DNA from: Luteimonas galliterrae
GTDB lineage: Bacteria > Pseudomonadota > Gammaproteobacteria > Xanthomonadales > Xanthomonadaceae
Length of the DNA stretch: 64,000 bases
Assembly (NCBI RefSeq): GCF_023374055.1
Contig: NZ_JAMBEP010000001.1
Location: forward strand, 1,612,001-1,676,000
Direction: 5' to 3'
The notes below the pieces were generated by a model. That model worked only from the letters and a program-made list of their open reading frames with translations, was not told where the DNA came from and did no database searches. Below are positions 9,962-62,465 of the stretch, one piece after another; position 1 is the first letter of the stretch, and each line of letters opens with the position of its first letter. A program made the translations under genes and the position numbers.

Positions 9962-10190
9962 CTCGGGAATCGGAATCGGAATCGGGAATCGGGAATCGGG
10001 AATCGGGAATCGGGATAGCTTGATGCTTTTGCCCCCTTTGAAAAAGGGGGTCGGGAATTTGCTGGCCTTTCGTAAGAGCGGCTTCAGCCGCGAGCTCTTG
10101 ATGTTGGCTTCTCGGCCGTCGAAAAGCTCGCGGCTGAAGCCGCTCTTACGAAAAGCAGCAACAAAGCGTCCCCTTTTTCAAAGAGGCAGG
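9962..10190. repeat. Composite nested repeat: heptamer array plus families B and A
   Basis: In order: a GGGAATC-type heptamer array (9962-10016), family B left arm CCCCCTTTGAAAAAGGGGG (about 10030-10051), family A left arm (10072-10100, core GAGCGGCTTCAGCCGCGAGC), family A right arm inverted (10122-10150), and family B right arm inverted (10169-10190). The whole forms a large nested inverted structure. The right end contains the yoaA stop codon. Confidence 0.85.
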
Positions 10191-12206: not shown

Positions 12207-12363
12207 TATAGCGGAGCTTGCCCCGCTGCTTTCGCTTTCTTGCTCTTGTAGGAGCGGCTTCAGCCGCGAGCTCTTGATTCTTTGCCTTTGGGCGGGAAAG
12301 CTCGCGGCTGAAGCCGCTCCTACAAGAGCCGACGCCAAGGCGGCGGGGCAAGCCCGGCTCTAC
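12207..12363. repeat. Nested inverted repeats (family F around family A)
   Basis: Family A arms at 12247-12275 and 12299-12325 (core GGAGCGGCTTCAGCCGCGAG, and its inverse) are enclosed by a second inverted pair, AGCGGAGCTTGCCCCGCT at about 12212 and GGCGGGGCAAGCCCGGCTCT at about 12341. This fills the gap between the yoaA start and the lipoprotein gene. Confidence 0.8.
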
Positions 12364-21246: not shown

Positions 21247-21343
21247 GACAGAGAGGCTACAGCACCCGGAAAATGGCGCAATGCCCCTGATGGAACGCCT
21301 GTTTTCCATTTGAAGCTGCCGCTCGTTGCAAGGCCCTGCTTTT

Positions 21344-21423
21344 TGTGGGAGCGGCTTCAGCCGCAAGCTTTGTGGATGGCGGCGGATCGGCAAGAAAAGC
21401 TCGCGGCTGAAGCCGCTCCTACA
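21344..21423. repeat. Family A inverted repeat pair
   Basis: GGGAGCGGCTTCAGCCGCAAGC at the left and its inverse GCTCGCGGCTGAAGCCGCTC at the right form a long imperfect stem between relA and the divergent secreted-protein gene. The promoters of both genes must lie in or beside it. Confidence 0.8.
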
Positions 21424-21446
21424 AAGTGCAAAAAAGGAAACAGAAC

Positions 21447-27494: not shown

Positions 27495-29300
27495 ATGACC
27501 ACCCGCGCCCGCGAAATACTGCAAACCGTCTTCGGATTCTCCGATTTCCGCGGCGAACAGGAAGCGATCGTCGAGCATGTCGCCCAGGGCAACGACGCGC
27601 TGGTGCTGATGCCCACCGGCGGCGGCAAGTCGCTGTGCTATCAGGTGCCCGCGCTGCTGCGCGACGGCTGCGCCGTGGTGGTTTCGCCGCTGATCGCGCT
27701 GATGCAGGACCAGGTGGAGGCCCTGCGCCAGCTCGGCGTGCGCGCGGCCTATCTCAATTCGACGCTCGACGCCGGCGCCGCGACGCAGATCGAACAGGCC
27801 CTGCTGCGCGGCGAACTCGACTTGCTGTACGTGGCGCCCGAGCGGCTGCTCACGCCGTACTTCCTGTCGTTGCTGGAACGCAGCCGCATCGCACTGTTCG
27901 CGATCGACGAGGCGCACTGCGTATCGCAATGGGGCCACGATTTCCGCCGCGAATACCGCGAACTGACCATCCTGCACGAGCGCTGGCCCGGCATCCCGCG
28001 CATCGCGTTGACCGCCACCGCCGACCCGCCCACGCAGCGCGAGATCGCCGAGCGCCTGCAGCTGGAGGAGGCGCGTCGTTTCGTCAGTTCGTTCGACCGC
28101 CCCAACATCCGCTACAACGTGGTGCAGAAGGACAACGGCAGCCGGCAGCTGCGCGATTTCATCGCCACGCACGTCGGCGAATCGGGCATCGTCTACTGCC
28201 TGTCGCGCAAGAAGGTCGAGAAGACCGCCGAGGCGCTGGTCGGGCTCGGCGTCACGGCCCTGCCCTATCACGCCGGCCTGGATGCCGGCATCCGCGCTCA
28301 GAACCAGCGCCGTTTCCTGCGCGAAGACGGCGTGGTGATGGTCGCCACCATCGCGTTCGGCATGGGCATCGACAAGCCCGACGTGCGCTTCGTGGCGCAC
28401 ATGGACCTGCCCAAATCGATCGAAGGCTACTACCAGGAAACCGGCCGCGCCGGCCGCGACGGCGAGCCTGCCGAGGCCTGGCTATGCCATGGCCTGGGCG
28501 ACGTGGTGCTGCTCAAGCAGATGATCGAAAACTCCGAGGCGGGCGAGGAACGCAAACGCCTGGAGCGGCGCAAGCTGGATTCGCTGGTCGGCTATTGCGA
28601 GACGATGCGCTGCCGGCGCCAGGTGCTGCTGGCCAATTTCGGCGAAGACTATCCGAGGCCCTGCGGCAATTGCGACAACTGCCTGCAGCCGGCCGAAACC
28701 TGGGACGCCACCGTCGCCGCGCAGAAAGCCTTGAGCTGCGTCTACCGCAGCGGCCAGCGCTTCGGCGCGATGCACCTGATCGATATCCTTCGCGGCGTGG
28801 ACAACGAACGCGTGCGGCAGTTCGGACACGACCGGCTCAGCACGTTCGGCGTCGGCCAGGACTTGGACGTCAGGGCTTGGCGCGGCGTATTCCGCCAATT
28901 GGTGGGGTCCGGATTGCTCGAAGTGGATGCCGAAGGCTTCGGCGGGCTGCGCCTGGCCGAGGCCAGCCGCGCCGTGCTGCGCGGCGAACACCCGGTGATG
29001 CTGCGCAAGGAACTGCCGCGCAAACCCGAACGCGAGCGCAACGCGCGCACGCCCGCCACCGCCGCGGTGCTGCAACCGGCGGACCAGCCGCTATTCGAGG
29101 CGCTGCGCGAACTGCGCGCGCAATTGGCGCGTGAACAGAACGTGCCTGCTTATGTGATCTTCCACGACAGCACGTTGCGCAATATCGCCGAACAGCGGCC
29201 GTCGTCGCTGGATGAACTGGCGACGATCGGCGGCATCGGCGGCACCAAGCTGGCTCGTTACGGCGAGCAGGTGCTCGCGATAGTCATGGCACAGGCTTAG
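27495..29300 (+). CDS. recQ: ATP-dependent DNA helicase RecQ
   Basis: 3'-5' SF2 helicase of recombination and fork repair, 601 aa. Walker A is PTGGGKSLCYQ (residues 40-50), and the DEAH box with aromatic loop is IDEAHCVSQWGHDFR. Motif VI is QETGRAGRDG. The RQC zinc site (CETMRCRRQ with CGNCDNC) and a C-terminal HRDC domain (LREQNV-type, ending ARYGEQVLAI) are present. Length and domains are standard. Confidence 0.96.
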   Translation: MTTRAREILQTVFGFSDFRGEQEAIVEHVAQGNDALVLMPTGGGKSLCYQVPALLRDGCAVVVSPLIALMQDQVEALRQLGVRAAYLNSTLDAGAATQIEQALLRGELDLLYVAPERLLTPYFLSLLERSRIALFAIDEAHCVSQWGHDFRREYRELTILHERWPGIPRIALTATADPPTQREIAERLQLEEARRFVSSFDRPNIRYNVVQKDNGSRQLRDFIATHVGESGIVYCLSRKKVEKTAEALVGLGVTALPYHAGLDAGIRAQNQRRFLREDGVVMVATIAFGMGIDKPDVRFVAHMDLPKSIEGYYQETGRAGRDGEPAEAWLCHGLGDVVLLKQMIENSEAGEERKRLERRKLDSLVGYCETMRCRRQVLLANFGEDYPRPCGNCDNCLQPAETWDATVAAQKALSCVYRSGQRFGAMHLIDILRGVDNERVRQFGHDRLSTFGVGQDLDVRAWRGVFRQLVGSGLLEVDAEGFGGLRLAEASRAVLRGEHPVMLRKELPRKPERERNARTPATAAVLQPADQPLFEALRELRAQLAREQNVPAYVIFHDSTLRNIAEQRPSSLDELATIGGIGGTKLARYGEQVLAIVMAQA

Positions 29301-29306
29301 ACATGG

Positions 29307-29331
29307 TTCCGGGCGGCATTGCCGCCCGGAA
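29307..29331. terminator. Perfect 11-bp hairpin between recQ and the DUF11 locus
   Basis: TTCCGGGCGGC (29307-29317), loop ATT, then GCCGCCCGGAA (29321-29331). It lies 7 bp after recQ and 37 bp from the end of the convergent DUF11 gene, so it can serve both as a terminator. There is no T-run, so it may need Rho or only protect RNA ends. Confidence 0.65.
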
Positions 29332-29367
29332 GCTTCACCCGCATTCGGCGATCCAGATGCTGGCCGA

Positions 29368-31281
29368 TTAAGGCGCCACGGTGCAGGTCAGCGTGAAGGT
29401 CACGGCACCGTTCAACGGCATGGTCGGAATAACGGTGCCGGCTGCGGATTGCAGTTCGGAAACCAATGCGGCGCCGGTAGCGCTCGGGCAAACCGCACCG
29501 TTCGTTGCCGAACCGCAAACGGCGGTTGCGCACGTCAAACCCGTCGGTGCCGGATCGCGCACGACCGCGCCGTTCGCCGCGCTGGGGCCCAAATTGGTGA
29601 CCACGATGCTGTAGTCCACGCTCGACCCGGCCGCGACCGTATCGGCGCTGCCGTCGGCAGGGCCGTTAGCCGGCGTGTTGGTCTTGGTGATCTGCAAGTT
29701 GGCTTCGTTCACCACGGTGAACGACGCCGGCGGCGTGTTGCCGGTGCGCGGTATTCCGGTGCTCTTCGACCTGTAGCCGATGCTGGCGACGTTCGCAATC
29801 GAAGTGCCGTTGGCCACATCTGGGTTGATCGTGACCTTGAACTCGATAGTGGTCGCAGAGGTCGGTGTGGGCGTGGGCGACGGCTCCAAGACGCCGCCGT
29901 CGGCGCTATTGGCACCGACGCCAGCACGGAACACGATCTGGCTGCCGTTGAACTCGACCTGGTCGTCGCCGGCGGCGTCGGTCTTGGGACCTGCGTTGGG
30001 CCCGTTGGTCACCACGATCGAACCAGGCACGAAAGTCACGCCGGCGGGCAACGGATCTGTGACGACGACGATCTCGGCGTCGTCGTTGCCGGTATTGGCG
30101 ACGTTGACCGAATAGGTGACTTCGTCGCCTGGACGGAACGGCGCGCCGTTGGCGTCGGTCGCGGATTTGCTGAAGTTGGTGACCACTTCCGGCTCGAACA
30201 CGTCGGTGGCGATGGTCATGATGCCGGGATAGTTGACGTCGCCGCTCGAGCCTCGGATGCGCGCGACTAAGCTAGACGATTCGTTCGGCAACGGCGTGTT
30301 CGGCCGGAACACATCGATGTCGATGCCGAGCGTATTCGTGTAACTAGGCACGCGTCCGGCGGTCACGTTCGTTCCGTCAACGCTGATCGTACTGTTGAAA
30401 ACGTCGAACACCGTATTGACCGCGTTGGACACCGGCGTGAGACTGGTATCGTTCGGACCGAACTGCAGCGACGCCGTACTCGATCCGGCATCGTTCTGGC
30501 CGCGGTCGCCGTCGTAGGTCACCAGGCCGATGTCGCTGTTGACCGGATTTGGTGCACGCGGCGTAATGAAGCCGCTGACCTCAACGTCGATAGTCGAGTT
30601 GACGCCGTCGGCGAGCTGGAAGCCGTCGAAGACCGACAGGTTGCGCAGATCGCCGCTGGCGTTCTGATAGGCGACCACTAGCGTCCAGCCGGCCCACTGC
30701 CCATCCCCGGGGGTCAGGCCGACATTGGCGACGGTGTAGGCGCCATTGCCGCTCGCGGCGACGGTTGTTGTAACGTCGATAAATGACTGATAAGCGTTGC
30801 TGATGACGTCCGTGTTCGTGGCCGAAACCGTGGCATAGCCGGCGCTGGCCGGCGTCCGCAACAGCACGCTGTTGCGAGCGGCCGCAGTGCTGGTCTGCCC
30901 CGCCCAATAGAGGCCGGCGAACAGCACCGTGGAGCCGGCCGGCAGATTCAGCGTGGCGGTGCTTGAGTTGGTCGTGGTGCCGTCCGTATCGACGTCGACC
31001 GCGGTCATGTTGGTACCGTTGTTGCGGCCCGCGCCGTTCTGCGCGGTACAGGTGCCGGGGCAGCTCAAGCTGGTATTGCCGATCAGTGCAATATTGCCAC
31101 GCACCGTCACCGGCTGCGCCATGGGCGCCGGGAAGCGTCGCGCGAAGCTGCGCGCCTGGGCAAAGACCGGCGCGGCCGCCGCCCACAATGCGGCCAAGAG
31201 CAAGCACGCAACCAGCGTGCGCCAGCGCCGCCGGCGCGAGACGGTTTCGGAGATCGTGTTCTGCATTGCGTGCCCGGACAT
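29368..31281 (-). CDS. Secreted DUF11-domain protein (637 aa)
   Basis: Third gene of the DUF11/barrel/OmpA locus; its ATG at 31281 overlaps the stop of the barrel gene (ATGA). A long twin-arginine-like basic N-terminus (SRRRRWRT) precedes a hydrophobic signal segment ending in AQA. Residues about 60-370 are a Thr/Ser/Asn-rich beta domain. DUF11 units follow at about 375-520 (PGDEVTYSVNVANTGNDDAE) and 545-637 (AGSSVDYSIVVTNLGPSAAN). The protein stops within the last strand of the second DUF11 (TFTLTCTVAP), so any C-terminal anchor is missing or was lost. It is probably periplasmic or surface-exposed; function unknown. Confidence 0.82.
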   Translation of the reverse strand: MSGHAMQNTISETVSRRRRWRTLVACLLLAALWAAAAPVFAQARSFARRFPAPMAQPVTVRGNIALIGNTSLSCPGTCTAQNGAGRNNGTNMTAVDVDTDGTTTNSSTATLNLPAGSTVLFAGLYWAGQTSTAAARNSVLLRTPASAGYATVSATNTDVISNAYQSFIDVTTTVAASGNGAYTVANVGLTPGDGQWAGWTLVVAYQNASGDLRNLSVFDGFQLADGVNSTIDVEVSGFITPRAPNPVNSDIGLVTYDGDRGQNDAGSSTASLQFGPNDTSLTPVSNAVNTVFDVFNSTISVDGTNVTAGRVPSYTNTLGIDIDVFRPNTPLPNESSSLVARIRGSSGDVNYPGIMTIATDVFEPEVVTNFSKSATDANGAPFRPGDEVTYSVNVANTGNDDAEIVVVTDPLPAGVTFVPGSIVVTNGPNAGPKTDAAGDDQVEFNGSQIVFRAGVGANSADGGVLEPSPTPTPTSATTIEFKVTINPDVANGTSIANVASIGYRSKSTGIPRTGNTPPASFTVVNEANLQITKTNTPANGPADGSADTVAAGSSVDYSIVVTNLGPSAANGAVVRDPAPTGLTCATAVCGSATNGAVCPSATGAALVSELQSAAGTVIPTMPLNGAVTFTLTCTVAP

Positions 31282-34200
31282 CAGTACTTTCCTACGATGT
31301 TGAGGAAGAACCCTTTGTGGTCGTAATCGAAATCGGTGAGATCATCGCTGAAATCGGTGAAGTTGTAGCCCACGCCGATGCGGAAATTGCCGCCGATGTC
31401 GCGGTCGATCCCCACCAGGAAGCCCTGCCGGCTGCCGCCGCTGGTCACATCGAGCCAACGGTACTCTGCCAGACCGTGCCAATCGTCACCGAATTCGTAG
31501 CGGACCTGGCCTGCGGCGAACGTCGCAGCCGCGTCGGCCCATTGTCCGCTCAAGCGGCCGAAACGCACCTCGCCTTCGCGGCGCATCAGCTTGGTGGCCA
31601 ATTCCCAGCGGTTGTCGGGGTTGTACACGCCTTCCAGCGACAGCACCTGGCTGCGCTGGTCGTAAAACGCCACGTTGTCGCCGACCTGCTGCAGCGAAGA
31701 CACGTCGTATAAGTACGTGTATTTGCCGAGCAGCGCCCAGCGCGTGGTGTCGAACGGACGCCAGGCGAAACCGAGGTTGCCTTCGACGAACTTGGCGCCG
31801 GCCGCGGCCAGCAGCTGGTCCTCGGTCTCGGAATAGTTCACGCGTGCGGCGACGCGGAAGCTTTCGTTGACCTTGTGCAGCAAACGGTTGGTGGTGACCC
31901 ACTGCTCGCGGCGCTCGGCGCCGGTGTCGCGGCGCCATTCCAGCTTGCTCTGCCACTGCGTGTCGACCGAGGTGCGGCCGCCGTTGACGCTGATCGCGTT
32001 GCGATCGACTTGGCCGGCGCCGTTGTCGAGCTCGGCGGTCTGGAGCGTGAAACCCGTGTTCCAGCCTTGGCCCGGATAGAAATCCATGCCGAAGGTATGC
32101 GCCAGACCGGATTCGTTCGGTGCTTTCAGGTACTGGCTTTCGTTGAACAGGTTGACCTGGTTCGACAAGCGCCAACGCTGGCCCAATGTCCAGCCGGGAT
32201 TGAGCCGGTTGTTGAACAGCGGGTCGTATTCGGTGGTATCGGTGGAATACGTGTAGGCGCCGTACAGCGAATGCTCCGGTGACAGGCGATATTCGGCATT
32301 CACTTGCGCCGCGTCGCCGCGATCGCCGCTGGTGACTTCGGCGCCGACCGTCGACAGGTCGCCGAACAGGTATTTGCCGCCGAGCGTGAACGCATCGTTG
32401 TCGGCGTATTTGCCGTTGTCGTCGTCGATCGTCACCTGCGCAGTGCCGTATAGTTCCAGCTTGCTGCCGATGCGTCGCAGGTATCGTATCGCGGCCAGCG
32501 TGCCGATCGCGTCGCCGGCATTCTGGTCCTCGTCGATCCTGCGCAATTCGCCGCTGAGCGTGCTGCCGCCATCGATGCGCCATTCGCCCGTGAACTGCGC
32601 CTGGGTCAGCGATTCCAGGCCGCGTTCGGCGCGGCTGTAGCGCGAATAGACCTGGAAATCGTCGGTAACCAGGCCCAGCACTTCGGCGCCGTGCTCTTCG
32701 ATGTCGTAACCCTGGTCGAAGCGCGCTACCGAAAAGCCGGCATCGGCTTGGCGCCACCATGCGCCGGCGGACCAGTCGCGCTTCGTCCAGCCCAGTTCTT
32801 TCAGGTTGACGCGCCCTTCCACGCTGCTGGCATCGCCGTCGCGGGCGCCCAGGCCCGAGTTGATTTCGGTGAAGCTGAGGCCGCCGTTGTCGGAGAAGAA
32901 CACCGGCACGCTGGTCGATTCGGACTTGGCCTGCTCCAACTTGAGATACGTGCCGCGCCCTGCCTGCAGCGTGATGTCGGCGCCTTTCAGCGAATAATCC
33001 TCGCCGGCGCGGTTTTCGTCGACATAGGTCGCGCCTACCGCGACGTGGTCGCCGAACCAGTGCCTGCCGCGGAAGCCCGCAGTCAGTTCATCCGGATCGA
33101 AACCGGTGGGCACGTATTCGTAATCGGCCAGGAGCACCTGGGTGAAGCCGTCGAGCGGCGCGTCACGGGTCAGCGTGGGGATGTTCTCGCGCGTCACCTG
33201 GGCCAGCGGACGCGTCAGCAGCACACGGCCTTGCAGTTCGTCGATTTCGTAATCGGCGCCGCGCAGCAGCTCGACGCGGTTCTCGACGCGGCCGGTGCCG
33301 GCATCGCGGATCTCGAGCACCAGCCGGTCCGAGCCGGGCAGGACGTCGGTATGCTTCAGGTAATACAGGCTGCCGCCGGTGCCGATGAACTCGCTATGCC
33401 CGGGCGCGGTCTGCGCTTCCGAGCCGAACGCCCGGAACTCGCTGCCCGGCGCGCCGAACACGGTATTGCGCTGCGAACGCCAACTGAAGGCGCCGCCGTA
33501 CAGCGCGCGCGAATACTGGCCGTATTCGGTGCCGGTGATGCCGGTATTGAAGTTGCCCCACAGCGCCTGGTTCTTGTCCCAGTCGACGCGCACGTACAGG
33601 CGGCCCTGGGTGTCGACGTCGCGGTAGGTGGTGGAATCGTCGCCGTACACCGGGTAGTACAAATCCGGATCCAGGCGACGGAAGATGTCCTGCGGGTCGG
33701 CATCCCAGAAGCCGCTGAACAATTCGCTGACTTCGCGTTCCTGCGTATCGGCCTGCGCGGTGATCAGGTATTTGCCCTTGACCTTGCCCTTCAGGTAGAA
33801 GGCGAGGCGGCCCTCGAGCAGGAAGCTGTCGTCGAAGCGGTCGTCCGCGGCCAACGGTTCCACCGAGCCGCTGACGTCGTTCTGCGAGGCGGTGAGATCG
33901 GCGATGGCGACCGCGAACATGTAGCGGCCGCTGACGTCGATATCCAGCGTGTGTTCGATCTTGCGCTGGTCGGGGCCCTGCATTTCGATATCGAAACGGT
34001 GACGGCCGATCGGCACCAGATACTCGGCCACCAGCTTGCGTTCCAGGTCTACCGGCTGGCTCTGCCCGTCGATGGTCAGCGAATAGCCGTCCGGAATATT
34101 GCGGCCCTGGATGCGAATGCGCGAGCCGTAAATGCCGATATTCTGCTGGCGCAGGCTGTTTTCGCCGAACGCGCCGTCGATCAGGCTCTGCTGCTCCGCC

Positions 34201-34991
34201 TGCGCCAGGCTGAAAGCGGTGCCGAACTTGCTTTCGATCTCGCCGCGCAATTGCTGCGCGCCGCGCTCGGCTTCTTCCGGACGGACCAGTTGCAGCCGGC
34301 GCGGATAGGTCTCGTCCACCGCTTTCTCGTCCTGGCCGTAAGCGCGGACGATGTATTGCAGTTCGTCGCCGGCGCGCAACGCCAGCCCTTGCGGCAGGGC
34401 GCCGTCCCATTCGGCGCTGCTGACCGCACCCGCTTGCAGCGGCACAACGGCTAGCGGCGTCACCAGGTCCGCATCGGTCGCGCGGAAGATCGCGATCTCG
34501 GCGCGTTTGATGAAATCCGGATAGTTGTTGTAGACATAGAACTGCACCGGCTGCGCGACGCGGCTGCCGTCGAAGGCGACGAAACTCGGCGCGGAGACGC
34601 TGAGTTCCGGCTGGCCCAGGCTGGGATCTTCGGTCGCCCAGATCACGCCGCCATTGGGCAGCTGCACCGACCATTTGCCGATCGCGACCGCTTTGCCCGG
34701 CGCTTCGGCCTGCACGGTGACGCGGCGGTCCGGCTGCAAGGCCTGCGACGATGCCGTGTTATCCGGCGCGACCGGCTGGCGTTCGCCGCGCGTGCGCACG
34801 CGCAGCAGCACGCCTTCGTCGGACACGCAGGTCACGCCAGTGCAATCGACCTTGTTCGCGTTCTGCGATGCGTCGGCCTTGCCGTTGGCGCCTTGCGGCG
34901 ATGACGATTCCTGTGCGGCCGCCAGCGGCGAAACGCCGGCCAGCAGGCAGATCAGGGTGTAATCGAGCAGTTTCATTTTCATGGTCGTCAT
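31281..34991 (-). CDS. Predicted outer-membrane beta-barrel protein with N-terminal Ig-like/PEGA-like domains
   Basis: A 1,236-aa protein with a signal peptide (LICLLAGVSPLAAA). Residues about 30-370 are soluble and beta-rich, including a PEGA-like segment (YLVPIGRHRFDIEMQGP). From about 390 to the end, alternating amphipathic strands dominate (KGKYLITAQADTQ; LYGGAFSWRS; FRIGVGYNFTDF). The last strand is GFFLNIVGKY with a C-terminal aromatic residue, as expected for BAM-assembled barrels. It lies 6 bp after the giant DUF11/OmpA gene and overlaps the 637-aa DUF11 gene, so the three form one transcript. There is no TonB-box or plug domain that I recognise. A role as exporter or anchor for its partners is inferred. 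Confidence 0.75.
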   Translation of the reverse strand: MTTMKMKLLDYTLICLLAGVSPLAAAQESSSPQGANGKADASQNANKVDCTGVTCVSDEGVLLRVRTRGERQPVAPDNTASSQALQPDRRVTVQAEAPGKAVAIGKWSVQLPNGGVIWATEDPSLGQPELSVSAPSFVAFDGSRVAQPVQFYVYNNYPDFIKRAEIAIFRATDADLVTPLAVVPLQAGAVSSAEWDGALPQGLALRAGDELQYIVRAYGQDEKAVDETYPRRLQLVRPEEAERGAQQLRGEIESKFGTAFSLAQAEQQSLIDGAFGENSLRQQNIGIYGSRIRIQGRNIPDGYSLTIDGQSQPVDLERKLVAEYLVPIGRHRFDIEMQGPDQRKIEHTLDIDVSGRYMFAVAIADLTASQNDVSGSVEPLAADDRFDDSFLLEGRLAFYLKGKVKGKYLITAQADTQEREVSELFSGFWDADPQDIFRRLDPDLYYPVYGDDSTTYRDVDTQGRLYVRVDWDKNQALWGNFNTGITGTEYGQYSRALYGGAFSWRSQRNTVFGAPGSEFRAFGSEAQTAPGHSEFIGTGGSLYYLKHTDVLPGSDRLVLEIRDAGTGRVENRVELLRGADYEIDELQGRVLLTRPLAQVTRENIPTLTRDAPLDGFTQVLLADYEYVPTGFDPDELTAGFRGRHWFGDHVAVGATYVDENRAGEDYSLKGADITLQAGRGTYLKLEQAKSESTSVPVFFSDNGGLSFTEINSGLGARDGDASSVEGRVNLKELGWTKRDWSAGAWWRQADAGFSVARFDQGYDIEEHGAEVLGLVTDDFQVYSRYSRAERGLESLTQAQFTGEWRIDGGSTLSGELRRIDEDQNAGDAIGTLAAIRYLRRIGSKLELYGTAQVTIDDDNGKYADNDAFTLGGKYLFGDLSTVGAEVTSGDRGDAAQVNAEYRLSPEHSLYGAYTYSTDTTEYDPLFNNRLNPGWTLGQRWRLSNQVNLFNESQYLKAPNESGLAHTFGMDFYPGQGWNTGFTLQTAELDNGAGQVDRNAISVNGGRTSVDTQWQSKLEWRRDTGAERREQWVTTNRLLHKVNESFRVAARVNYSETEDQLLAAAGAKFVEGNLGFAWRPFDTTRWALLGKYTYLYDVSSLQQVGDNVAFYDQRSQVLSLEGVYNPDNRWELATKLMRREGEVRFGRLSGQWADAAATFAAGQVRYEFGDDWHGLAEYRWLDVTSGGSRQGFLVGIDRDIGGNFRIGVGYNFTDFSDDLTDFDYDHKGFFLNIVGKY

Positions 34992-34997
34992 CGCCCC

Positions 34998-37900
34998 TTA
35001 TTGGCCACGTGTGCCGACAGGGGCTGTCGGTTTGTCGCTGATGTCTACGCGCAGTTTTCCGCGCGCCTCCGGACTGAGCTTGGCGGCGATCGCCTCGTAC
35101 ACCGCCTTGGCGCGGCGTAGGCCGAGCGCGGCGTTGTAGCTGTCGGCGCCGCGCCGGTCGGCATGGCCGACTATTGCGATCGCACCGCCCTTTCGGCTTT
35201 CGATATCGGCCGCGAGCTTGTCGATCAACGGCGCGTACTCGGGCTTGATCGCCGCTTGGTCGGTGTCGAACAGCAGCGTGCCCAGCACCGCCGATTCGCC
35301 GAGCGCCAGCAGCGAGCTGTCCGGGTCTTCGACATCGGCGCGCAGATCCACGCTCAGCGCTTGCGCCTGTTCCGGCGTGAGTTTTTCTAGCAGCGCGGCA
35401 CGCACCGCCTTGGCGCGGTCGTAGGCCAGGGCCTGCGTTTCGCCATTCGCGGCGATGACGACCTGGCCGCCGCCGTGCGCTCGCACCTGCTCGGCCATCT
35501 TGTCGATCACCGGCGCGTACTGGCTGCGCAACGCGGCGCTGCCGGCATCGAACATCACCTCACCGAGCTCCATCTCGACGGCCTGTTCGCCTCCTTCGAT
35601 CAGGCCTGACGGCAGCTTGACGCCGAAGTCGAAGCGCACCGGAATGCCCGGCGTGAGGCGACGCACCAGCGGGTTGTCGCTGGTGAGCACGCTGCCCGGC
35701 GGCAACGTGGCCGGATCTAGCTTGAGGATGAAGTTGCGGCCGCGCTCCCACGGACCGCCAGCCACGCCTTCCAGGTGGTAGCGGCCGAACTGATCGGTCT
35801 CTATCAGCAAGCCTTCCACCGATGCGATGCGCACGCCCGGTATGCCGCGTTCGTCGACGCCGGCATTGCGGATGACGTAGTCGACGCGATAACCGTCGCC
35901 GACCTGGCTGACGCGACGCTCGACCTTGGGATCGGCGCCGCTCAGGCCCTTAGCCGCATCGCTGCTGCGTTCGACGCGGGTGTTGCCGGCCGCATCCATG
36001 CGCACGGTCACGCCTTGCTTGTTGGTCAGCACGAAGTCGTCGCTGAAGGCGAGCGCGTTCAAGGTCTGGCCGATCACGACGGTATGCGCGTCGAGCGGCT
36101 CGGCGTCGGACTGGCGTCCCGCGATCTCGCCGATATCGATGCCGTGCAGCAGCGGCGCGCTGGCATCGGCCTGCGTTACCGGACCGTCGCCGCGGTCGAC
36201 CGTGGTCGAACCAGCCACGTAGGCGCCCGGCGCGAAGCCGCCCTGCACGCGCACGCCGCTCAGGCTGGCGCGATCCTGCCAGCCATCGCCGTCGCGGTCG
36301 TCGAACACGGTGCCGATCAGCAGCGATTCGTCGAGTAGCGGATCGGCGACCAGCTGCACTTCCGCGGTCGCTTCGTTCGAGACGATGCGGCCGCCATCTT
36401 CGGCGCGCGCGCGGTTGACGTGCGTACCCGGACGCACGCCGGCGCCGACGCGCAGCAGGTACACCACAGTGGCGTGCTCGCCGGCGCGCACGTCGAGCTG
36501 GTCAACGCGGATCGGATAGGTGCCGACCAGGCGGCCGTTACCATCGGCATCGGCCACCGCCAGCGAGTTCGCGACGTAGCTGAAGCCGGCCGGCGGCGTA
36601 TCGATCAACGTGGCGTCGCTGATGTTGGCCGCGCCGACGTTCTCGATGGTCAGGGTGTAGCGGACCAGGTCGCCGATCTTGACGTCGCGCGGGCTGGCCT
36701 GCTTGACGATGCGCAATTGCGCCGCGTCGACGACCGCATGCTGCGTGGTGCAGGACGCGCACTCCGGCTGGCCCCCGCTGCTGCCGCCGTCGGCGGCGAC
36801 CGCATTGGAGACGTTGCCGTTGGCGTCGGCGTTGACCGTGGCCGGATACGCGAAACTGTACGTGCCCGGCACCGATCCGGACGGCAACGTGCAAACGATC
36901 GTGCCGCCGCTGCTCGCGCAACCGGCCGGCAGGGTGCCGATGGTCAGGCCCGTTCCGGGCGTATCGGTCAGCGTCACCGGCTGCGTGGTCGCGGCATTGG
37001 CCACCGTCACCGTCAGCGTGTACTGGATCGTGTCGCCGATGTTCACCGCGACGCCGTTGCCGGGCGTCGAGGTTTTGGACACCTGCACGACAGGCGCGGC
37101 GATCGGGTGCTGCGTAGCGCAGCTCGTGCAGTCCGGATCGGTCGTGCTGCCGCCGGTCGCTGCGACGTTGTTGCCGATCGCACCGCTGGCCGTGGCCGCG
37201 ACGACGGTCTGGTAGACGAAGGCGTAGTTGCCCGGCAGCGAGCCTGCGGCGAGCGTGCACTGCAAACCGTTGGCAGTCGTCGAGCAGGCGCCGCCGGCCG
37301 GTACGGTAGGCGTACCGGTGAGGCTGTGGGCGCCGCTGATCGTATCGGTCAGCACCACCGGCGAGAGGGTCGCGGAATTGGCGACCGCCACCGTGACGGT
37401 GTAAGTGACCGTGTCGCCCGCATTGACCGCGCTGCCGCTGGCGGGATTCGACGATTTGGTCACCGTCACCTGCGGCGCGATGATCGAATGCCCGGTCGTG
37501 CAGCCGGCGGCCGCGCAAGTCGGATTGTCCGGCCCGCTCGGCACCACGCTGTTGCCGATGGCGCCGGTCGCATTCGCATCGACAGTCGCCGGATACACGA
37601 AGGTGTAGTTGCCCGGCAACGAACCGGCGGCGAGCGTGCAAGTCACGACCTGGCCCGCCGCGGTGCAGCCGGCCGGCATCGCGCCGAGCGTTTGGCCCGC
37701 GCTAAGCGTATCGGTCAGCGTGACCGCTGCGGTGGTCGCCGAATTGGCGACCGTCGCCGTCAGCGTGTACTGGATCGTGTCGCCCGGGCTGACCGTGCTG
37801 CCGCTCGCGGGATTCGACGACTTGGACACCGTCACCGCCGTGGCCACGATCGTATGCGTGGTCGTGCAGCCGCCTGCCGCGCAAGTCGGATTGTCCGGGC

Positions 37901-40900
37901 CGCTCGGCACCACGTTGTTGCCGATCGAGCCGGTCGCGTTCGCGTCGACGGTAGCCGGATAGGCGAAGTTGTAGCTGCCCGGCAAAGCGCCCGCACCAAG
38001 CACGCAGGTGACGACCTGCCCCGCCGCCGAGCAGCCAGCCGGCATCGTGCCGAGCGTCTGGCCCGCGCTGAGCGTATCGGTCAGCGTGACCGGGGCGGTA
38101 GTCGCCGAGTTGGCGACGGTCACCGTCAGCGTGTAGCCGATCGTGTCGCCGGGATCGACGGTCGTGTCGCTGGCCGGATTCGACGATTTCGATACCGTCA
38201 CCGCGGTCGGCACGATCGTATGCGTCGTCGCGCATCCGGCAGCAGCGCAGGTCGGATTGTCCGGACCGCTCGGCACGACGTTGTTGCCGATCGAGCCGGT
38301 CGCGTTCGCGTCGACGGTCGCGCTGTAGACGAACGTGTGCGGATTGCCGCTCGGCAATGCGCCAGGCGCCAGCGTGCAGGTCACGACCTGGCCGGAAACA
38401 CCGCAACCGGCCGGCATCGCGCCGAGCGTCTGTCCGGCGCTGAGCGTATCGATCAGCGTGACGGCGCCGGTGGTGGCCGAATTGGCGACGTTCACCGTCA
38501 GCGTGTACTGGATCGTGTCGCCCGGGCTCACCGTCGTTCCGGAGGCCGGATTCGACGCCTTGGACACCGTCACCGCCGTGGCGACGATCGTATGCGTGGT
38601 CGTGCAACCGCTTGCGACGCAAGTCGGATTGTCGGGGCCGCTGGGCACGACGGTATTGCCGACCGAACCGGTCGCGTCGGCATTCACCGTCGCCGGATAG
38701 ACGAAGGTGTAAGTGCCCGGCAGCGAACCGGCGGCAAGGGTGCAGGTCACGACCTGGCCAACGGGCGAGCAGCCCGCGGGAAGCGTGCCGAGCGTCTGGC
38801 CCGCCGTCAGCGTGTCGGTCAGCGTGACCGCACCGGTGGTCGCCGAATTGGCGACGTTCACCGTCAGCGTGTACTGGATGATGTCGCCCGGATCGACCGT
38901 GCTGCCGCTGCCCGGATTGGATGCCTTCGAAACGGTGACGGCCGGCGCGACGATCGTGTGCGTAGTCGCGCAACCGCCCACCGCGCAAGTCGGATTGTCC
39001 GGACCGCTGGGTACGACGTTGTTGCCGATCGCGCCGGTCGCGTTCGCATCGACCGTGGCGCTGTAAACGAACGTGTACGGACTGCCGCTAGGCAAGGCGC
39101 CGGCGGCGAGCGTGCAGGTCACGACCTGGCCCGCAGGCGTGCAGCCTGCGGGAAGCGCGCCGAGCGTCTGGCCCGCGGACAGCGTGTCGGTCAGTGTGAC
39201 TGCGCCGGTGGTCGCCGAATTGACGACATCCACCGTCAGCGTGTACTGGATCGTGTCGCCCGGATTCACGACCGTGCCGCTGGCCGGATTCGACGCCTTC
39301 GAAACGGTGACGCCCGGCGCGACGAGCGTATGCGTCGTCGTGCAACCGCCCACGGTGCAGGTCGGATTGTCGGGACCGCTCGGCACGACGGCATTGCCGA
39401 TCGAACCGGTCGCGTCGGCATTGACCGTCGCCGGATAGGTGAAGGTGTAGTTGCCCGGCAACGAACCCGCCGCGAGCGTGCAGGTCACGACCTGACCGGC
39501 GGGCGTGCAGCCGGCCGGCATCGCACCGAGCGTCTGGCCCGCGCTCAACGTATCGGTCAGCGTGACCACGCCGGTGGTCACCGAATTGGCGACGTTCACC
39601 GTCAGCGTGTACTGGATCGTGTCGCCCGGATCGACCGTGCTGCCGCTGGCCGGATTGGACGATTTCGACACCGTCACCGCGGTCGGCACGATCGTATGCG
39701 TCGTCGTGCAGCCGCCGGCCGCGCAAGTCGGATTGTCCGGACCGCTGGGCACCACGTTGTTGCCGATGGAGCCGGTCGCGTTCGCATCGACCGTGGCGCT
39801 GTAGACGAACGTATGCGGGCTGCCGCTGGGCAATGCACCGGCGGCGAGTACGCAGGTCACGACTTGGCCCGCAGGCGTGCAGCCCGCGGGAAGCGCGCCG
39901 AGCGTCTGGCCCGCGGTCAACGTATCGGTCAACGTGACCGCGCCGGTCGTGACCGAATTGGCGACCGTGACGCTGAGCGTGTACTGGATCGTGCTGCCGG
40001 GAGCGACGGTCGTGCCGCTGGCGGGATTGGACGCCTTCGCCACCGTCACGACGGGCGCGACGATCGTATGCGTGGTGGCGCAGGCGCCGGCCGCGCAAGT
40101 CGGATTGTCGGGACCGCTGGGCACGACGTTGTTGCCGATCGAACCGGTCGCACTCGCATCGACCGTGGCTGGATAAACGAAAGTGTAGCTGCCCGGCACG
40201 GAACCTGCGGCGAGCGTGCAGGTCACGACCTGGCCGGCAGGCGTGCAACCAGCCGGAAGCGTGCCGAGCGTCTGGCCTGCGGTCAGCGTATCGGTCAGCG
40301 TGACGACGCCGGTGGTCGCCGAGTTGGCGACGTTCACCGTCAACGTGTACGTGATCGTGTCGCCCGGGCTTACGGTCGTGTTGCTCGCCGGGTTCGACGT
40401 TTTAGTCACCGTCACCGCTGGCGCGACCGTCGTGGTCTCGGTGCATTTGTTGCCGGCTGCGGCGCAGTTCACGCCTCTCACCGTCACCGCATTGGTGATG
40501 CTGGCGAGGTTGGCCGGCAGCGGGTCGTCGACCCGGGACACGAAGTCCAGCGTCTGGGTCGTGCCGGCCGCGATGTTGATCGTGTTCGTGTTGCTGCAAC
40601 TGCTGCCCGCACAGGTGAAGTCGTTGCCTGCAGCGACATAGGTCGTGTTCACCGGCAGCGGGCTGTCGACGATATCGCCCGGGAACAGCGTCGCCGCCAT
40701 ATCGCCGGCGATATGTTCGATGTCGATGTGATAGGTCAGCACGTCGCCTGGCTTGACGGTCGCACCGGCCGCGGCAGGCGCGCCGTTGATCAGGCCGAGC
40801 CTCTTTTCGACCTGCAGTTGCCCCGGTTGCGGTTCGGCCGGGAACGCGCAGGACGCCAGATCGCGCGCCTGGTTGTCGCCGTTGGAACCGGCGAGCGTCA

Positions 40901-42218
40901 GCGCGCCGGTCGCGAAGTCCAGCGCATAGTAGGTGTCGGCCGAGTTGTTGGTGGCCAGATACAGCCGGCCGTCGCTGCCGAAAGCTACGCCGGCCCATGC
41001 GATCGAGCTCGGCGAACCATTCAGCAACGGACGCTGCTGGCGCACCGCGTCCAGCGTCGAGATATCGATCTTGTAGATATCCTGACCGGCGCTCATCCAG
41101 GCGTTGCCGCCCGCGTCGAAGGCCATATCGCCGGAGCCGGTAGCGGTCGGGTTGACGTCGAAAGACAACAGGCCTTCCGAGGCGATCGTGTAATCGAACG
41201 CGCCGTTAGCGGTGACGCTCCAGACTTGCGGCGTATTGTTGTTGCCGGCCATGAGGTAGCCGATACCGGAAGGGCTCATGGCCGCCCGCGGCAGATCGGC
41301 CACGCCAGTCAGCAACGGCGCGGCTTGGTACCAACCGCCGTTGGCCGGATCGTAAGCCCACAACTGGGCGTTGCCGTTCGGACTGAGGCCCGTGTAGCTG
41401 ATGACCAACAAACGGTTCCTGACCGGATCGACCATCAATGCGTTGAAGTTGGCCGCCGGAGTGACGGGCAAATTCAACCCCGTTACATGGCTATCGGAAC
41501 CGCTGAGGCCGAAACTATAGAAACCGCCTGTGGTCGTCGCGCCCGAGGTGGACTGGGTGACGTTGTAGACCGTATTGGCCGCGCAGAAATTGATCACCGG
41601 CACCGAACTCACCGTGGTCGGATCGCTCGGATTGCAGCGCGCCTGCGTGGCGCCGCTGGGCGGACAGGTGGTGTCGCCGCCGCCGCTGGCGCGCGCCGTA
41701 TTGGTGACGCTCGGCGCGGCTGCGGCATCCACCGCGACCGTGAGCGTGATCGCCGGCGCCGACGCGCCCGGGTTGATGACGCCATTGGTGGTGCAGGTGA
41801 CGACCTGTCCGGCTGCGGCGCAGGTCCAGCCCGCACCTGTCGCAGAAACGAAGCTCAAGCCGGCAGGCAGCGTGTCCTCGACCGTGAGGGTGCCGGCGGT
41901 CGGCGCGCCGATCGGCGGCGCTGCGCTGGTATTGCTCAAGGTCAGCGTATAGACGCCGTTGATGCCGACATTGAAATTGCCGGTGTGGGTCTTGGCCAGC
42001 GTGAGCTGCGGCGCCGCCGCTACGATCGGATCGTCGTCCGTCGCCGAGTCGTTGCCGCCCTCGGGATCGACGACGCCGGCCGGAGGCGCGACGGTAGCGG
42101 TGTTGACCGCGTTCTGCGCCATGGCTACATGGCTTGCGCCAAGCGCGAACAGAATCAGCGCACACGCGACGACATAGCGACGCACGGCCGCCGGCAGGCT
42201 ACCCAGATGTAAGACCAC
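34998..42218 (-). CDS. Giant secreted DUF11-repeat protein with tandem C-terminal OmpA-like domains
   Basis: About 2,406 aa from a GTG start at 42218 preceded by a G-rich ribosome site; a TTG at 42233 would add 5 aa. Residue numbers here count from 42233. Signal peptide to about residue 40 ([11 protein letters not shown]). One DUF11-like unit lies at about 70-190 and a beta-propeller-like domain at about 215-480 (repeated blades such as [20 protein letters not shown]). Eight near-identical DUF11 repeats span 606-1587, two divergent ones 1588-1837 and a canonical one 1838-1950. An SdrD/Cna-B-like segment ([13 protein letters not shown]) follows, then two tandem OmpA-like domains at about 2224-2316 and 2317-2411. 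The second has [20 protein letters not shown], fitting peptidoglycan binding; the first is degenerate. First gene of the locus. Many repeat cysteines could form disulfides. Confidence 0.85.
35001..35564 (-). other. Tandem OmpA-like domain coding segment
   Basis: Two roughly 93-95-codon copies lie head to tail. [20 protein letters not shown] begins the upstream copy and [20 protein letters not shown] the downstream one. Only the downstream copy keeps the D-R residues that bind diaminopimelate in OmpA-type domains (HADRRGAD and GLRRAKAV). The upstream copy is shortened there ([16 protein letters not shown]). Confidence 0.75.
37473..40418 (-). repeat. Eight tandem DUF11-coding repeats alternating 366 and 372 bp
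   Basis: Repeat starts, read on the minus strand, lie at 40418, 40052, 39680, 39314, 38942, 38576, 38204 and 37838, ending at 37473. The lengths are therefore 122, 124, 122, 124, 122, 124, 122 and 122 codons. The 2-codon difference comes from [17 protein letters not shown] against [15 protein letters not shown]. Two more divergent units follow (start 37472, 127 codons; start 37091, 123 codons). The period-2 pattern implies duplication of a two-domain block. Confidence 0.93.
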
Positions 42219-42340
42219 GCCACCCCCCAACAAGCGAAGCCAATGGCCGCGCTTTGACGTTTAAGCAGTCTTCAGATAATTAACGTCCGAAGACATCCCC
42301 TGAATTCATGGAGCCATTTAACGTTGCAAAAATGTTACAC

Positions 42341-42359
42341 GTCACAATGAAAATGTGAC
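42341..42359. promoter_or_regulatory. Dyad GTCACA-N7-TGTGAC, candidate operator
   Basis: Perfect 6-bp inverted arms (42341-42346 and 42354-42359) around the AT-rich spacer ATGAAAA. The half-sites resemble CRP/Clp half-sites but in the opposite order (CRP is TGTGA-N6-TCACA), so the regulator is uncertain. It lies about 120 bp upstream of the giant DUF11 gene. Confidence 0.45.
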
Positions 42360-42380
42360 TAGATGCACAAAACCTTACAC

Positions 42381-42396
42381 GCACAAAGCATGCCAA
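42381..42396 (-). promoter_or_regulatory. Sigma54-like promoter element
   Basis: The minus strand reads TTGGCATGCTTTGTGC, which matches the -24/-12 pattern with GG and GC separated by exactly 10 nt and six of seven bases of TTGGCAC. It would start transcription near 42370 toward the DUF11 locus. No enhancer site was identified, so this stays a candidate. Confidence 0.3.
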
Positions 42397-42914
42397 CAGT
42401 TAAAGCTGATTTAACTAAAACTGAATGATTTAACCGACAATTTTTGTCGCATTCGGTTGGCGGCATGGGCTGGATCTGACCTCTTAAGTCCATGGCCAGT
42501 CACGCCCACGGTGCCGCACTGATCGCATATCGCAGGTGCCGGACGGCCCTGCTTCAGCGGGACGCAATGTATGGAATTGTGAGACCGGTCACAATCCCGA
42601 TAGCTTTCGCTCGATAACCGAATATTGCATTCGTGCCGAATGCGCGGCGGCCATCGCCGGCCGTTTCGCCGTGGCCCGGGACCAAGGCGGCTCGTCGTAC
42701 CAGGAGCGCGGCGATGCGAAGTCGCAGACGGAGACGCAATCGGCCTTGAAGGTGTCGGCCGCACGCGATCGCACGTCGGTCAGGGCCGACCGGGGGATCA
42801 AGGCGCACCAGCGATCGACTGGCCGACGGCGGCAGATCGTGGCGACAGAAGGCCGAGACAGGTATGGAGACCCCCTGCGGCTTCGGCGGAGAGAAGCGCA
42901 ATGCGGCGATTAGA

Positions 42915-42990
42915 TGGTGGGTCGTGATGGATTCGAACCATCGACCAGCGGATTAAAAGTCCGATGCTCTACCGACTGAGCTAACGACCC
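42915..42990 (-). tRNA. tRNA-Lys (anticodon TTT)
   Basis: Reads on the minus strand from 42990. Acceptor stem GGGTCGT pairs with ACGACCC (as 42984-42990 with 42919-42925). The D-loop has AGCTCAGTCGGTAGAGC, the anticodon loop CTTTTAA gives anticodon TTT, and the T-loop is GGTTCGAATCC. The discriminator is A and the CCA end is encoded (42915-42917). All arms fold normally. Confidence 0.97.
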
Positions 42991-43812: not shown

Positions 43813-44040
43813 GGGAATCAGGAATCGGGAATCGGGAATCGGAGCTTCAAGCTTTCCCCCCTTTGAAAAAGGGGGGTTGGGGGGATTTGCTCTTGCCTTT
43901 GTAGGAGCGGCTTCAGCCGCGAGCTCCTGATCTTCGGCCAGAAAAGCTCGCAGCTGAAGCCGTCCTACAAAAACAAAAAAAAGGAACAACAGCAAGAGCA
44001 AATCCCCCTCAATCCCCCTTTTTCAAAGGGGGAAGAACAG
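43813..44040. repeat. Composite nested repeat: heptamer array plus families B and A
   Basis: Same module order as at 9962-10190: GGAATC-type heptamers (43813-43842), family B left arm (43856-43890), family A left arm (43901-43927), family A right arm (about 43943-43970), family B right arm (44000-44036). The family A stem carries a one-base deletion in its right arm. It separates queE from queC and ends 4 bp before the queE stop. Confidence 0.85.
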
Positions 44041-44724: not shown

Positions 44725-44740
44725 GCGTCTATTTTAAGGC

Positions 44741-44829
44741 TTTTCGTAGGAGCGGCTTTAGCCGCGAGCTTTTCGGGTGTCAGCGCCGACAGCCGAGGAG
44801 CTCGCGGCTAAAGCCGCTCCTACGAAAAG
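44741..44829. repeat. Family A inverted repeat pair
   Basis: GTAGGAGCGGCTTTAGCCGC and its inverse GCGGCTAAAGCCGCTCCTAC form a near-perfect long stem between cpoB and queE. This copy is the TTTAGCC variant of the core; the stem bases co-vary in both arms. Confidence 0.85.
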
Positions 44830-54349: not shown

Positions 54350-54530
54350 ATTTTTCCCCCTTTGGAAAAGGGCGACACAGGGGGATTTGCTCTTGATCTT
54401 GCTTTTCGTAGGAGCGGCTTTAGCCGCGAGCTCTTGATCTTCACGAAAGGCAAGAGCTCGCGGCTAAAGCCGCTCCTACGAAAAGCCGAAAGCAAATCCC
54501 CCCTGCCCCCCTTTTTCAAAGGGGGGAACA
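54350..54530. repeat. Composite nested repeat: family B around family A
   Basis: Family B left arm (about 54354-54390), family A left arm (54408-54433), family A right arm (54453-54480), family B right arm (54492-54527; CCCCCCTTTTTCAAAGGGGG). Same order as at 10.1 and 43.9 kb, without the heptamer array. It fills the gap between ruvC and ruvA. Confidence 0.88.
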
Positions 54531-54554
54531 GCACATTTTTCAAGGCGACGAGAT

Positions 54555-56533: not shown

Positions 56534-56548
56534 GTGGCGATGCTGCTT

Positions 56549-56640
56549 TTGTGGGAGCGGCTTTAGCCGCGAGCTTTTCGAGCCGCGATGTCTTGAAGCA
56601 AGAGCTCGCGCCTAAAGCCGCTCCCACTAAAGCCGCTCCG
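56549..56640. repeat. Family A repeat pair with an extra partial copy
   Basis: GTGGGAGCGGCTTTAGCCGC and its inverse (CTAAAGCCGCTCCCAC) form the stem. A third, partial copy TAAAGCCGCTCCGACGAAG follows at about 56628-56646, suggesting slippage or partial duplication. Confidence 0.78.
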
Positions 56641-62320: not shown

Positions 62321-62377
62321 AAGGATACAGATTTTACCTGTTTTACCGCCGCTCCAGCGACCTGGTCGCGCCTTTTC

Positions 62378-62455
62378 GTGGGAGCGGCTTCAGCCGCGAG
62401 CTTTTCCCTGCGGGCGCAGCACGATCAAGAGCTCGCGGCTGAAGCCGCTCCCACA
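62378..62455. repeat. Family A inverted repeat pair
   Basis: GTGGGAGCGGCTTCAGCCGC and the inverse GCGGCTGAAGCCGCTCCCAC form a near-perfect stem between the esterase and the ABC-F gene. The GTGGG variant of the outer bases is matched in both arms. Confidence 0.85.
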
Positions 62456-62465
62456 AAAGCGGGGC

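Follow-up and report, generated by a model that had tools for sequence, protein, structure and literature searches.

Gene organization and protein architecture of the locus

A 64,000-nucleotide stretch of the Luteimonas galliterrae genome (RefSeq assembly GCF_023374055.1, contig NZ_JAMBEP010000001.1, positions 1,612,001–1,676,000; hereafter the window) contains three genes, designated A, B, and C, that encode a giant DUF11-repeat protein with OmpA-like domains at its C-terminus, a predicted outer-membrane barrel protein, and a second DUF11 protein. The rod-like protein A and the barrel B form a real pair, which recurs as adjacent genes and as fusions within a single open reading frame (ORF). 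All three genes are arranged head to tail on the minus strand (Table 1). The stop codon of A is separated from the start of B by 6 base pairs (bp; GGGGCG), B and C overlap by a single base (TGATG), and the start of A is ambiguous between TTG at 42233 and an in-frame GTG at 42218. An initial interpretation made from the letters of the window (hereafter the sequence-only reading) had listed the same three ORFs, i.e., a DUF11-OmpA rod, a barrel 6 bp further on, and a DUF11 protein, and these were confirmed; its 4-bp overlap between the last two is corrected here to 1 bp.

Pfam matches in A comprise DUF11 (1.4e-56), DUF7927, DUF7507, and OmpA (2e-13, two stretches), and the protein is composed of 13 DUF11-type units, an SdrD_B-like link, and two OmpA-like domains, with an N-terminus that by eye resembles a signal peptide. 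A Lys-Asp-Asn isopeptide triad was recognized by pattern and by eye in all 13 DUF11 units, the bonds themselves being predicted from sequence. Twelve of these units contain four or five cysteines, and the last one has none. The DUF11 domain of PDB entry 9IFR matches residues 1714-1832 of A (E 4.3e-17). The second OmpA-like domain carries by eye the Asp and the Arg of the peptidoglycan-binding motif, and the first one lacks the Asp. The search against PHROGs gave a match solely to the OmpA part of A. A phmmer search with the candidate tip module near the N-terminus gave matches in 9 of the 76 A proteins upstream of the barrel in the named loci described below, many of these proteins being cut by contig or locus ends. 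A would be a long, probably cross-linked surface fiber.

No family scored above the cut-off for B in Pfam or NCBIfam, the sole Pfam signal being a sub-threshold DUF2490 match (20.4 bits vs. the cut-off of 29.8), and a sequence search of the PDB with the barrel profile gave no matches at E up to 0.1. B was modeled with AlphaFold2 on 63 sequences (model residue n corresponds to B residue n+47), and the resulting model (mean predicted local distance difference test score, pLDDT, 76; predicted template modeling score, pTM, 0.69) has 34 strands of at least 8 residues at model residues 569-1188 and further strands at 310-545. With at least 34 strands, a barrel formed by one chain would rank among the largest known. 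Generic barrel models match some relatives of B, weakly, and B is predicted to be a large outer-membrane beta-barrel. The modeled Ig-like region N-terminal of it is presumably periplasmic. A fold search with this part gave generic Ig-like matches, the best being PorU (Z 8.7 over 98 residues), and hardly probed the second sandwich. With B as the query, Foldseek returned LptD, SprA, SlpA, and receptors including BtuB and Cir (query TM-scores 0.10-0.22), and a second-look structural alignment placed fimbrial ushers at ranks 1-8, with Z up to 17.5 and a root-mean-square deviation (rmsd) of 14.6 over 361 residues. Both sets of matches to the predicted structure are read as a large outer-membrane barrel and nothing more.

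Protein C has a signal-peptide-like N-terminus by eye, an N-terminal part lacking a confident Pfam match, and two DUF11 units (3.2e-14), with no OmpA match in Pfam.

Table 1. Features of the locus, in coordinates of the window (aa, amino acids).
Feature	Coordinates	Strand	Description	Basis
Inserted stretch	29297..42911	none	Absent at the same place in two same-genus genomes	
C	29368..31281	minus	DUF11 protein, 637 aa	ORF listing
B	31281..34991	minus	Predicted outer-membrane barrel protein, 1,236 aa	ORF listing, Pfam, AlphaFold2, generic barrel models on relatives
B residues 357-1236	31284..33923	minus	Predicted barrel region; C-terminal aromatic residue	AlphaFold2
B residues 100-365	33897..34694	minus	Two predicted Ig-like sandwiches and helical hairpin linker	AlphaFold2, pLDDT 90.3, folded alone
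A	34998..42233	minus	Giant DUF11 rod with C-terminal OmpA-like domains, 2,411 aa	ORF listing
A residues ~2222-2395	35049..35570	minus	Two OmpA-like domains	
A residues 1951-2225	35559..36383	minus	SdrD_B-like link with insert; marker module of the system	
A residues 1840-1945	36399..36716	minus	Final DUF11 unit; present in most relatives' A proteins	
A residues 597-1836	36726..40445	minus	Ten DUF11/DUF7927 units in tandem; Lys-Asp-Asn pattern and four Cys in each	
A residues 205-470	40824..41621	minus	Beta-propeller-like by eye; candidate tip module	
tRNA-Lys(ttt)	42915..42990	minus	3' end toward the cassette	

Conservation, fusion, and distribution of the rod-barrel pair

The GTDB genome collection was searched with the barrel alignment, and the best 80 of 586 confirmed places were analyzed as named loci, which, being the best ones, represent close relatives of B. 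They include Lysobacter, Luteimonas, Stenotrophomonas, Pseudoxanthomonas, Xanthomonas massiliensis, Dyella, and Arenimonas, and are also found in Halopseudomonas, Microbulbifer, Kangiella, Acinetobacter, Variovorax, and others. With the barrel as the only query, an A gene was found adjacent to it in 77 of the 80 loci (76 upstream, 1 downstream). Among the other three, the barrel is cut at the contig start in two, and one (L145) has no A. The sequence-only reading had pointed to the recurrence of DUF11 neighbors as decisive; the rod stands beside the barrel in these 77 loci, and a barrel family that always occurs apart from DUF11 proteins is not what this neighborhood search found. Our own profile detected an OmpA-like domain in 71 of the 76 upstream A proteins. 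In one locus (L166), from a metagenome-assembled genome (MAG) labeled Campylobacteraceae, the barrel is 47-48% identical to B; both transfer and a binning error are possible there.

The pairing was also seen when each partner was searched for separately. A barrel-only search of 199 related genomes gave a B match in 52 of them, some being fragments or of a diverged type, and the link module of A, searched for by itself, matched 38 of these 199 genomes, all of which, compared by eye, lie within the 52 with B. The distances of the A C-terminal module and of B are correlated (r = 0.84, 75 pairs), a value reached by 0 of 2000 permutations (best 0.25) and to which the genome phylogeny common to A and B contributes. 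The third gene follows another pattern: a C-like gene follows the barrel in 33 of the 74 testable named loci, 6 others having too little sequence. C was accordingly rejected as an obligate partner, and its place as a fixed member of the unit, as the sequence-only reading had it, was given up; C would be an optional secreted DUF11 protein.

The arrangement of domains was classified in a second set of 89 loci, a non-random sample that combines 50 of the 82 places from the 199-genome search with 39 hand-picked, mostly high-scoring ones. Left out of the 82 places were the window, cut or fragmentary places, second gene pieces, and 13 more of the third (diverged) barrel type. The two sets overlap in genomes (L130 and L067 lie on the same contig), and their counts are not additive. 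Our own barrel, OmpA, SdrB, and DUF11 profiles were used for the classification, a match to DUF11 or SdrB defining a rod. The rod gene lies upstream of the barrel in 62 loci and downstream in 3 (within 2.5 kb), and rod or link domains are located inside the barrel's own ORF in 24. The OmpA-like domain moves between these arrangements: it ends the rod protein in 37 loci, stands N-terminal of the barrel in the same ORF in 24, belongs to the gene just downstream in 10, and closes the barrel protein in 1 (L081). The domain order in the inspected ORFs of these loci is always rod, SdrD_B, OmpA, and barrel, with L081, where OmpA follows the barrel, as the sole exception. This constant order combined with shifting gene boundaries, the strongest evidence obtained in the study, argues that the domains belong to a single machine in which the periplasmic side of B has the C-terminal end of A next to it.

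The proposed system may consist of two genes, three genes, or a single chain, and its longest form is one ORF of ~11,760 codons in genome G309 (C2:428719-463995, across L263 and L264; an open frame of 11,777 aa in the class search), in which 16 and 32 DUF11 matches in two stretches (~48 units) are followed by SdrB, OmpA, and the barrel. In L087, a barrel, a stand-alone OmpA-like protein (320 aa), and a DUF11 rod follow one another, the wall anchor being a separate middle gene. The fused rod-barrel ORF of L226 (G323) has a rod that consists by Pfam mostly of Big_13 units, and the rod module looks exchangeable. The barrel of L225 (G420) is split into two overlapping ORFs (1,093 and 147 aa), possibly by a frameshift or a sequencing error. 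In L244-L249, L252, L255, L258-L260, and L262, more distant loci that belong partly to the same class and partly to other classes in the phylum, the barrel is preceded by short DUF11 proteins (~160-870 aa), an arrangement that resembles that of pilins.

Of 369 genomes drawn at the class level, 56 match the barrel profile, as do 47 of 299 drawn at the phylum level, a few genomes being in both draws; 24 of 72,556 plasmid records match as well. Among four plasmids inspected, those of three Alphaproteobacteria, namely Croceibacterium, Sinorhizobium meliloti, and Sulfitobacter guttiformis, have the same gene order, the genes directly upstream of the barrel being annotated as 'OmpA family protein' or 'DUF11 domain-containing protein'; on the fourth, from Vibrio campbellii, the region upstream of the barrel is unannotated. 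The barrels matched on plasmids are themselves annotated as hypothetical, TonB-dependent receptor, OmpA family protein, or outer membrane protein transport protein. In two same-genus genomes the alignments of recQ and of tRNA-Lys are separated by 161 and 85 bases, vs. 13.6 kb with A, B, and C in the window, and a third same-genus genome has the locus and extra DNA at this place. These alignments mark the locus as an accessory cassette next to tRNA-Lys.

A leader of ~680 bp separates A from tRNA-Lys and contains, upstream of A, a palindrome (GTCACATTTTCATTGTGAC, 42341-42359) that is a possible regulator site. The scan of eight flank proteins identified recQ, a DUF3418 helicase, queC, a radical SAM protein, a TolA-binding TPR protein, and tolB, with two proteins unmatched. 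A REP-like interspersed repeat of ~90 bases, revealed by blastn against same-genus loci, is present on both strands at many sites of the window, e.g., at 10067-10164, 12241-12332, 21336-21438, 43898-43980, 44738-44828, 54351-54533, 56539-56635, and 62369-62460.

Relation to known adhesins and secretion systems

The main text of one publication (PMC12617251) describes a CLIPPER (DUF11) fibrillar adhesin, B9T28_05395 of Acinetobacter silvestris ANC 4999, that has an isopeptide-bonded DUF11 stalk and an OmpA-like anchor end; its solved domain is PDB 9IFR, with an isopeptide bond between Lys-715 and Asn-806 and Asp-748 nearby. In the corresponding A. silvestris locus (L149), we found a 2,129-aa ORF that contains the letters of 9IFR within residues 708-828, matching the length and place given in that text, and 12 bases downstream begins a barrel ORF of 1,237 aa that is 55% identical to B. 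By sequence, the published adhesin is an A protein of this system: it shares with A the isopeptide-triad DUF11 stalk, the OmpA-like end, and the conserved link module, and A, with its tandem triad-bearing DUF11 units and predicted C-terminal OmpA-like anchor, would in turn belong to the CLIPPER/DUF11 adhesins. The main text of PMC12617251 covers the adhesin alone, and the terms 'barrel' and 'outer membrane' occur in it 0 times. The statement of the sequence-only reading that it knew of no described system of this composition thus has to be divided: the A protein has been published as a fibrillar adhesin, and its barrel goes unmentioned in that main text. Among the titles and abstracts listed from the literature searched, from which preprints and most subscription papers were absent, no DUF11-OmpA protein with a barrel partner is described apart from this adhesin, and the full-text matches listed mention neither the barrel family nor the fusions and the moving wall anchor. 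Fibrillar adhesins that end in OmpA-like domains are already known; what appears new is the barrel family, with its fusions and the shifting position of the wall anchor.

Several known systems combine a long surface protein with a barrel. CdrA-CdrB is a two-partner secretion (type Vb) pair with a POTRA barrel and a TPS domain; neither A nor B matches POTRA/ShlB-type or TPS domains in Pfam (E up to 1). According to PMC7616799, the C-terminus of the Pseudomonas aeruginosa CdrA fiber is held in the CdrB barrel by a cysteine hook, with the adhesive N-terminus outside; A would likewise be held C-terminally by a partner barrel and differs in ending in OmpA-like domains instead of a hook. The fused forms found here resemble type Va and Ve autotransporters in having rod and barrel in one chain, whereas the two are encoded by separate genes in 65 of the 89 loci. 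Type Ve autotransporters can bear a peptidoglycan-binding domain adjoining the barrel, and autotransporter barrels have 12 strands, the count predicted for B being almost three times that. In Pfam, B matches neither the type Va beta-domain (PF03797) nor the type Ve intimin-type barrel with LysM (E up to 1), and 1 of the 24 aligned sequences has a weak PF03797 match (0.0018).

AtaA is a homotrimeric fiber with a small composite barrel and in this respect differs from the DUF11 rod and the one very large barrel considered here. Its likeness to the present system lies in the combination of a long fiber, an outer-membrane barrel, and a peptidoglycan-bound periplasmic partner, TpgA, and in the simulations reported in PMC13082670 TpgA about doubles the force for extracting the AtaA barrel. 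SprA, the type 9 translocon, is among the best Foldseek matches to B by E-value (3.2e-7), but its query TM-score is 0.14-0.15, and no SprA sequence model matches B in Pfam or NCBIfam at E up to 1. SprA has 36 strands, which is similar to the number predicted for B. B does not match the DUF560-type barrel of the type 11 secretion system (T11SS)/Slam in Pfam (E up to 1). A T11SS lead via DUF11 (PMC12282271) was dropped, since the match in that paper is mainly to DUF1194.

Proposed function of the pair

We consider it somewhat probable that A is a surface fiber held by B and tethered to peptidoglycan; its surface location with the N-terminus outward, its seat within the B pore, its export through B, and its adhesive role are inferred. 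OmpA-like domains bind peptidoglycan, and in known outer-membrane barrels the N- and C-termini both face the periplasm, so that every position in which the OmpA-like domain occurs would be on the wall side. Rods of 13 to ~48 Ig-size units exceed the width of the periplasm, and a rod longer than the periplasm whose C-terminus is periplasmic would cross the outer membrane and bring its N-terminus outside. B, with its periplasmic Ig-like domains, would be the dedicated outer-membrane partner of A and adjoin the C-terminal end of the rod. The chain would most likely be exported unfolded through B, with folding and isopeptide bond formation taking place outside; the fiber would then sit in the pore, the C-terminal OmpA-like domains staying in the periplasm on peptidoglycan and the variable N-terminal modules acting at the distal tip. 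The sequence-only proposal that the barrel anchors or exports the rod with the OmpA end on the wall holds as the best reading, owing to the co-occurrence, the 24 of 89 shared ORFs, and the joint divergence; the OmpA end as a universal component is not supported, as detailed below. More tentatively, and with less confidence than in the held and tethered fiber, the loci might represent an unnamed export and anchoring system of Pseudomonadota, in which barrels of at least 34 strands each serve one giant isopeptide fiber, exported N-terminus first and locked by OmpA in most cases. That the barrel represents a new exporter class is a genuine possibility.

A number of observations weigh against this reading. 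Genetic linkage and fusion point to a functional tie and not to export as such, and if A folded in the periplasm and formed its disulfide and isopeptide bonds there, its passage would be blocked. B appears to be the sole candidate for the crossing among the proteins seen, with no systematic neighborhood search made for another exporter. The AlphaFold2 model of B has a pTM of 0.69, and the closure, pore, and sidedness of the barrel are putative. The literature searched yielded no experimental work on B or on an A-B pair of any origin. Exceptions to the pairing are found as well. L145, a Caulobacterales MAG, has enough sequence and no adjoining ORF that matches the rod profiles; among the 38 genomes with the link module, G052 shows B as 23-residue pieces only, and G051, G056, G087, and G112 match the link weakly (E 4e-5 to 3e-4). 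Two of the 24 shared-ORF loci (L246 and L262) carry the link alone in the barrel ORF, with DUF11 genes upstream. Our own profiles found no OmpA-like domain in 14 of the 89 loci, nor in 5 of the 76 A proteins that lie upstream of the barrel in the named loci. Automated scoring had put the loci lacking it at 17 of the 89, and three were reassigned on inspection: the end of the barrel is overlapped by an OmpA ORF in L082 and L083, and L067 is the contig of L130, whose downstream rod has OmpA. Pfam likewise detected no OmpA in eight barrel or fused proteins (L080, L088, L226, L231, L250, L252, L256, and L257) and in three rods of the 14 loci.

Among the alternatives, B may be an anchor only, another machine exporting A and B clamping its periplasmic end so that the load is divided between the outer membrane and the wall in the manner of TpgA and AtaA. 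The simulated effect of TpgA on barrel extraction and the variable placement of the OmpA module, sometimes in a separate gene, favor such a division of labor, which we regard as unlikely: a barrel of at least 34 strands is far beyond the need of an anchor, and the eight flank proteins scanned in the window include no exporter family, with no systematic exporter search made. An usher-like B that builds a multi-subunit fiber from A, C, and small DUF11 proteins would agree with the short DUF11 genes upstream of the barrel in the more distant loci, with the C-like gene after B in under half of the testable named loci, and with the ranks and Z-scores of fimbrial ushers in the second-look alignment. 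The top alignments, however, span 346-382 residues with an rmsd of ~15 Å, and many unrelated barrels come after the ushers, with Z as high as 12, so that mere barrel geometry may account for the similarity; no usher model matches B, no chaperone family is found among the eight flank proteins scanned, and the usher role is improbable.

Still less probable is a B that works as a nutrient receptor of the TonB-dependent type or as a porin, with the DUF11-OmpA protein as a periplasmic strut. Some relatives are annotated as TonB-dependent receptors, and BtuB and Cir appear among the Foldseek matches; a TonB-dependent receptor model is nevertheless found neither in B (E up to 1) nor in the 24 aligned sequences, window included (E up to 0.01), and rods of 13 to ~48 units would, given the dimensions of the periplasm, not fit across it. 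The identity of B as a TonB-dependent receptor or porin was rejected for this lack of a family match. That A and B are chance neighbors, or travel on an island that carries both, is extremely improbable. The location of the locus as an accessory cassette at a tRNA gene would agree with it, but the genes are adjacent in 77 of the 80 named loci and in 65 of the 89 classified ones, the remaining 24 having a shared ORF, and the order is the same on the three alphaproteobacterial plasmids; the rod-barrel fusions contradict it directly.

The fiber held by B and tethered to the wall, if correct, bears on a broader matter, since the literature searched gave no account of how OmpA-ended fibrillar adhesins of Gram-negative bacteria reach and hold the surface. 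The widespread barrel family, whose link to these adhesins shows in gene order, co-divergence, and natural fusion, is a concrete candidate for surfacing and holding them. The pair occurs in many Gram-negative bacteria and may represent an undescribed means of holding, and perhaps of exporting, giant adhesins.

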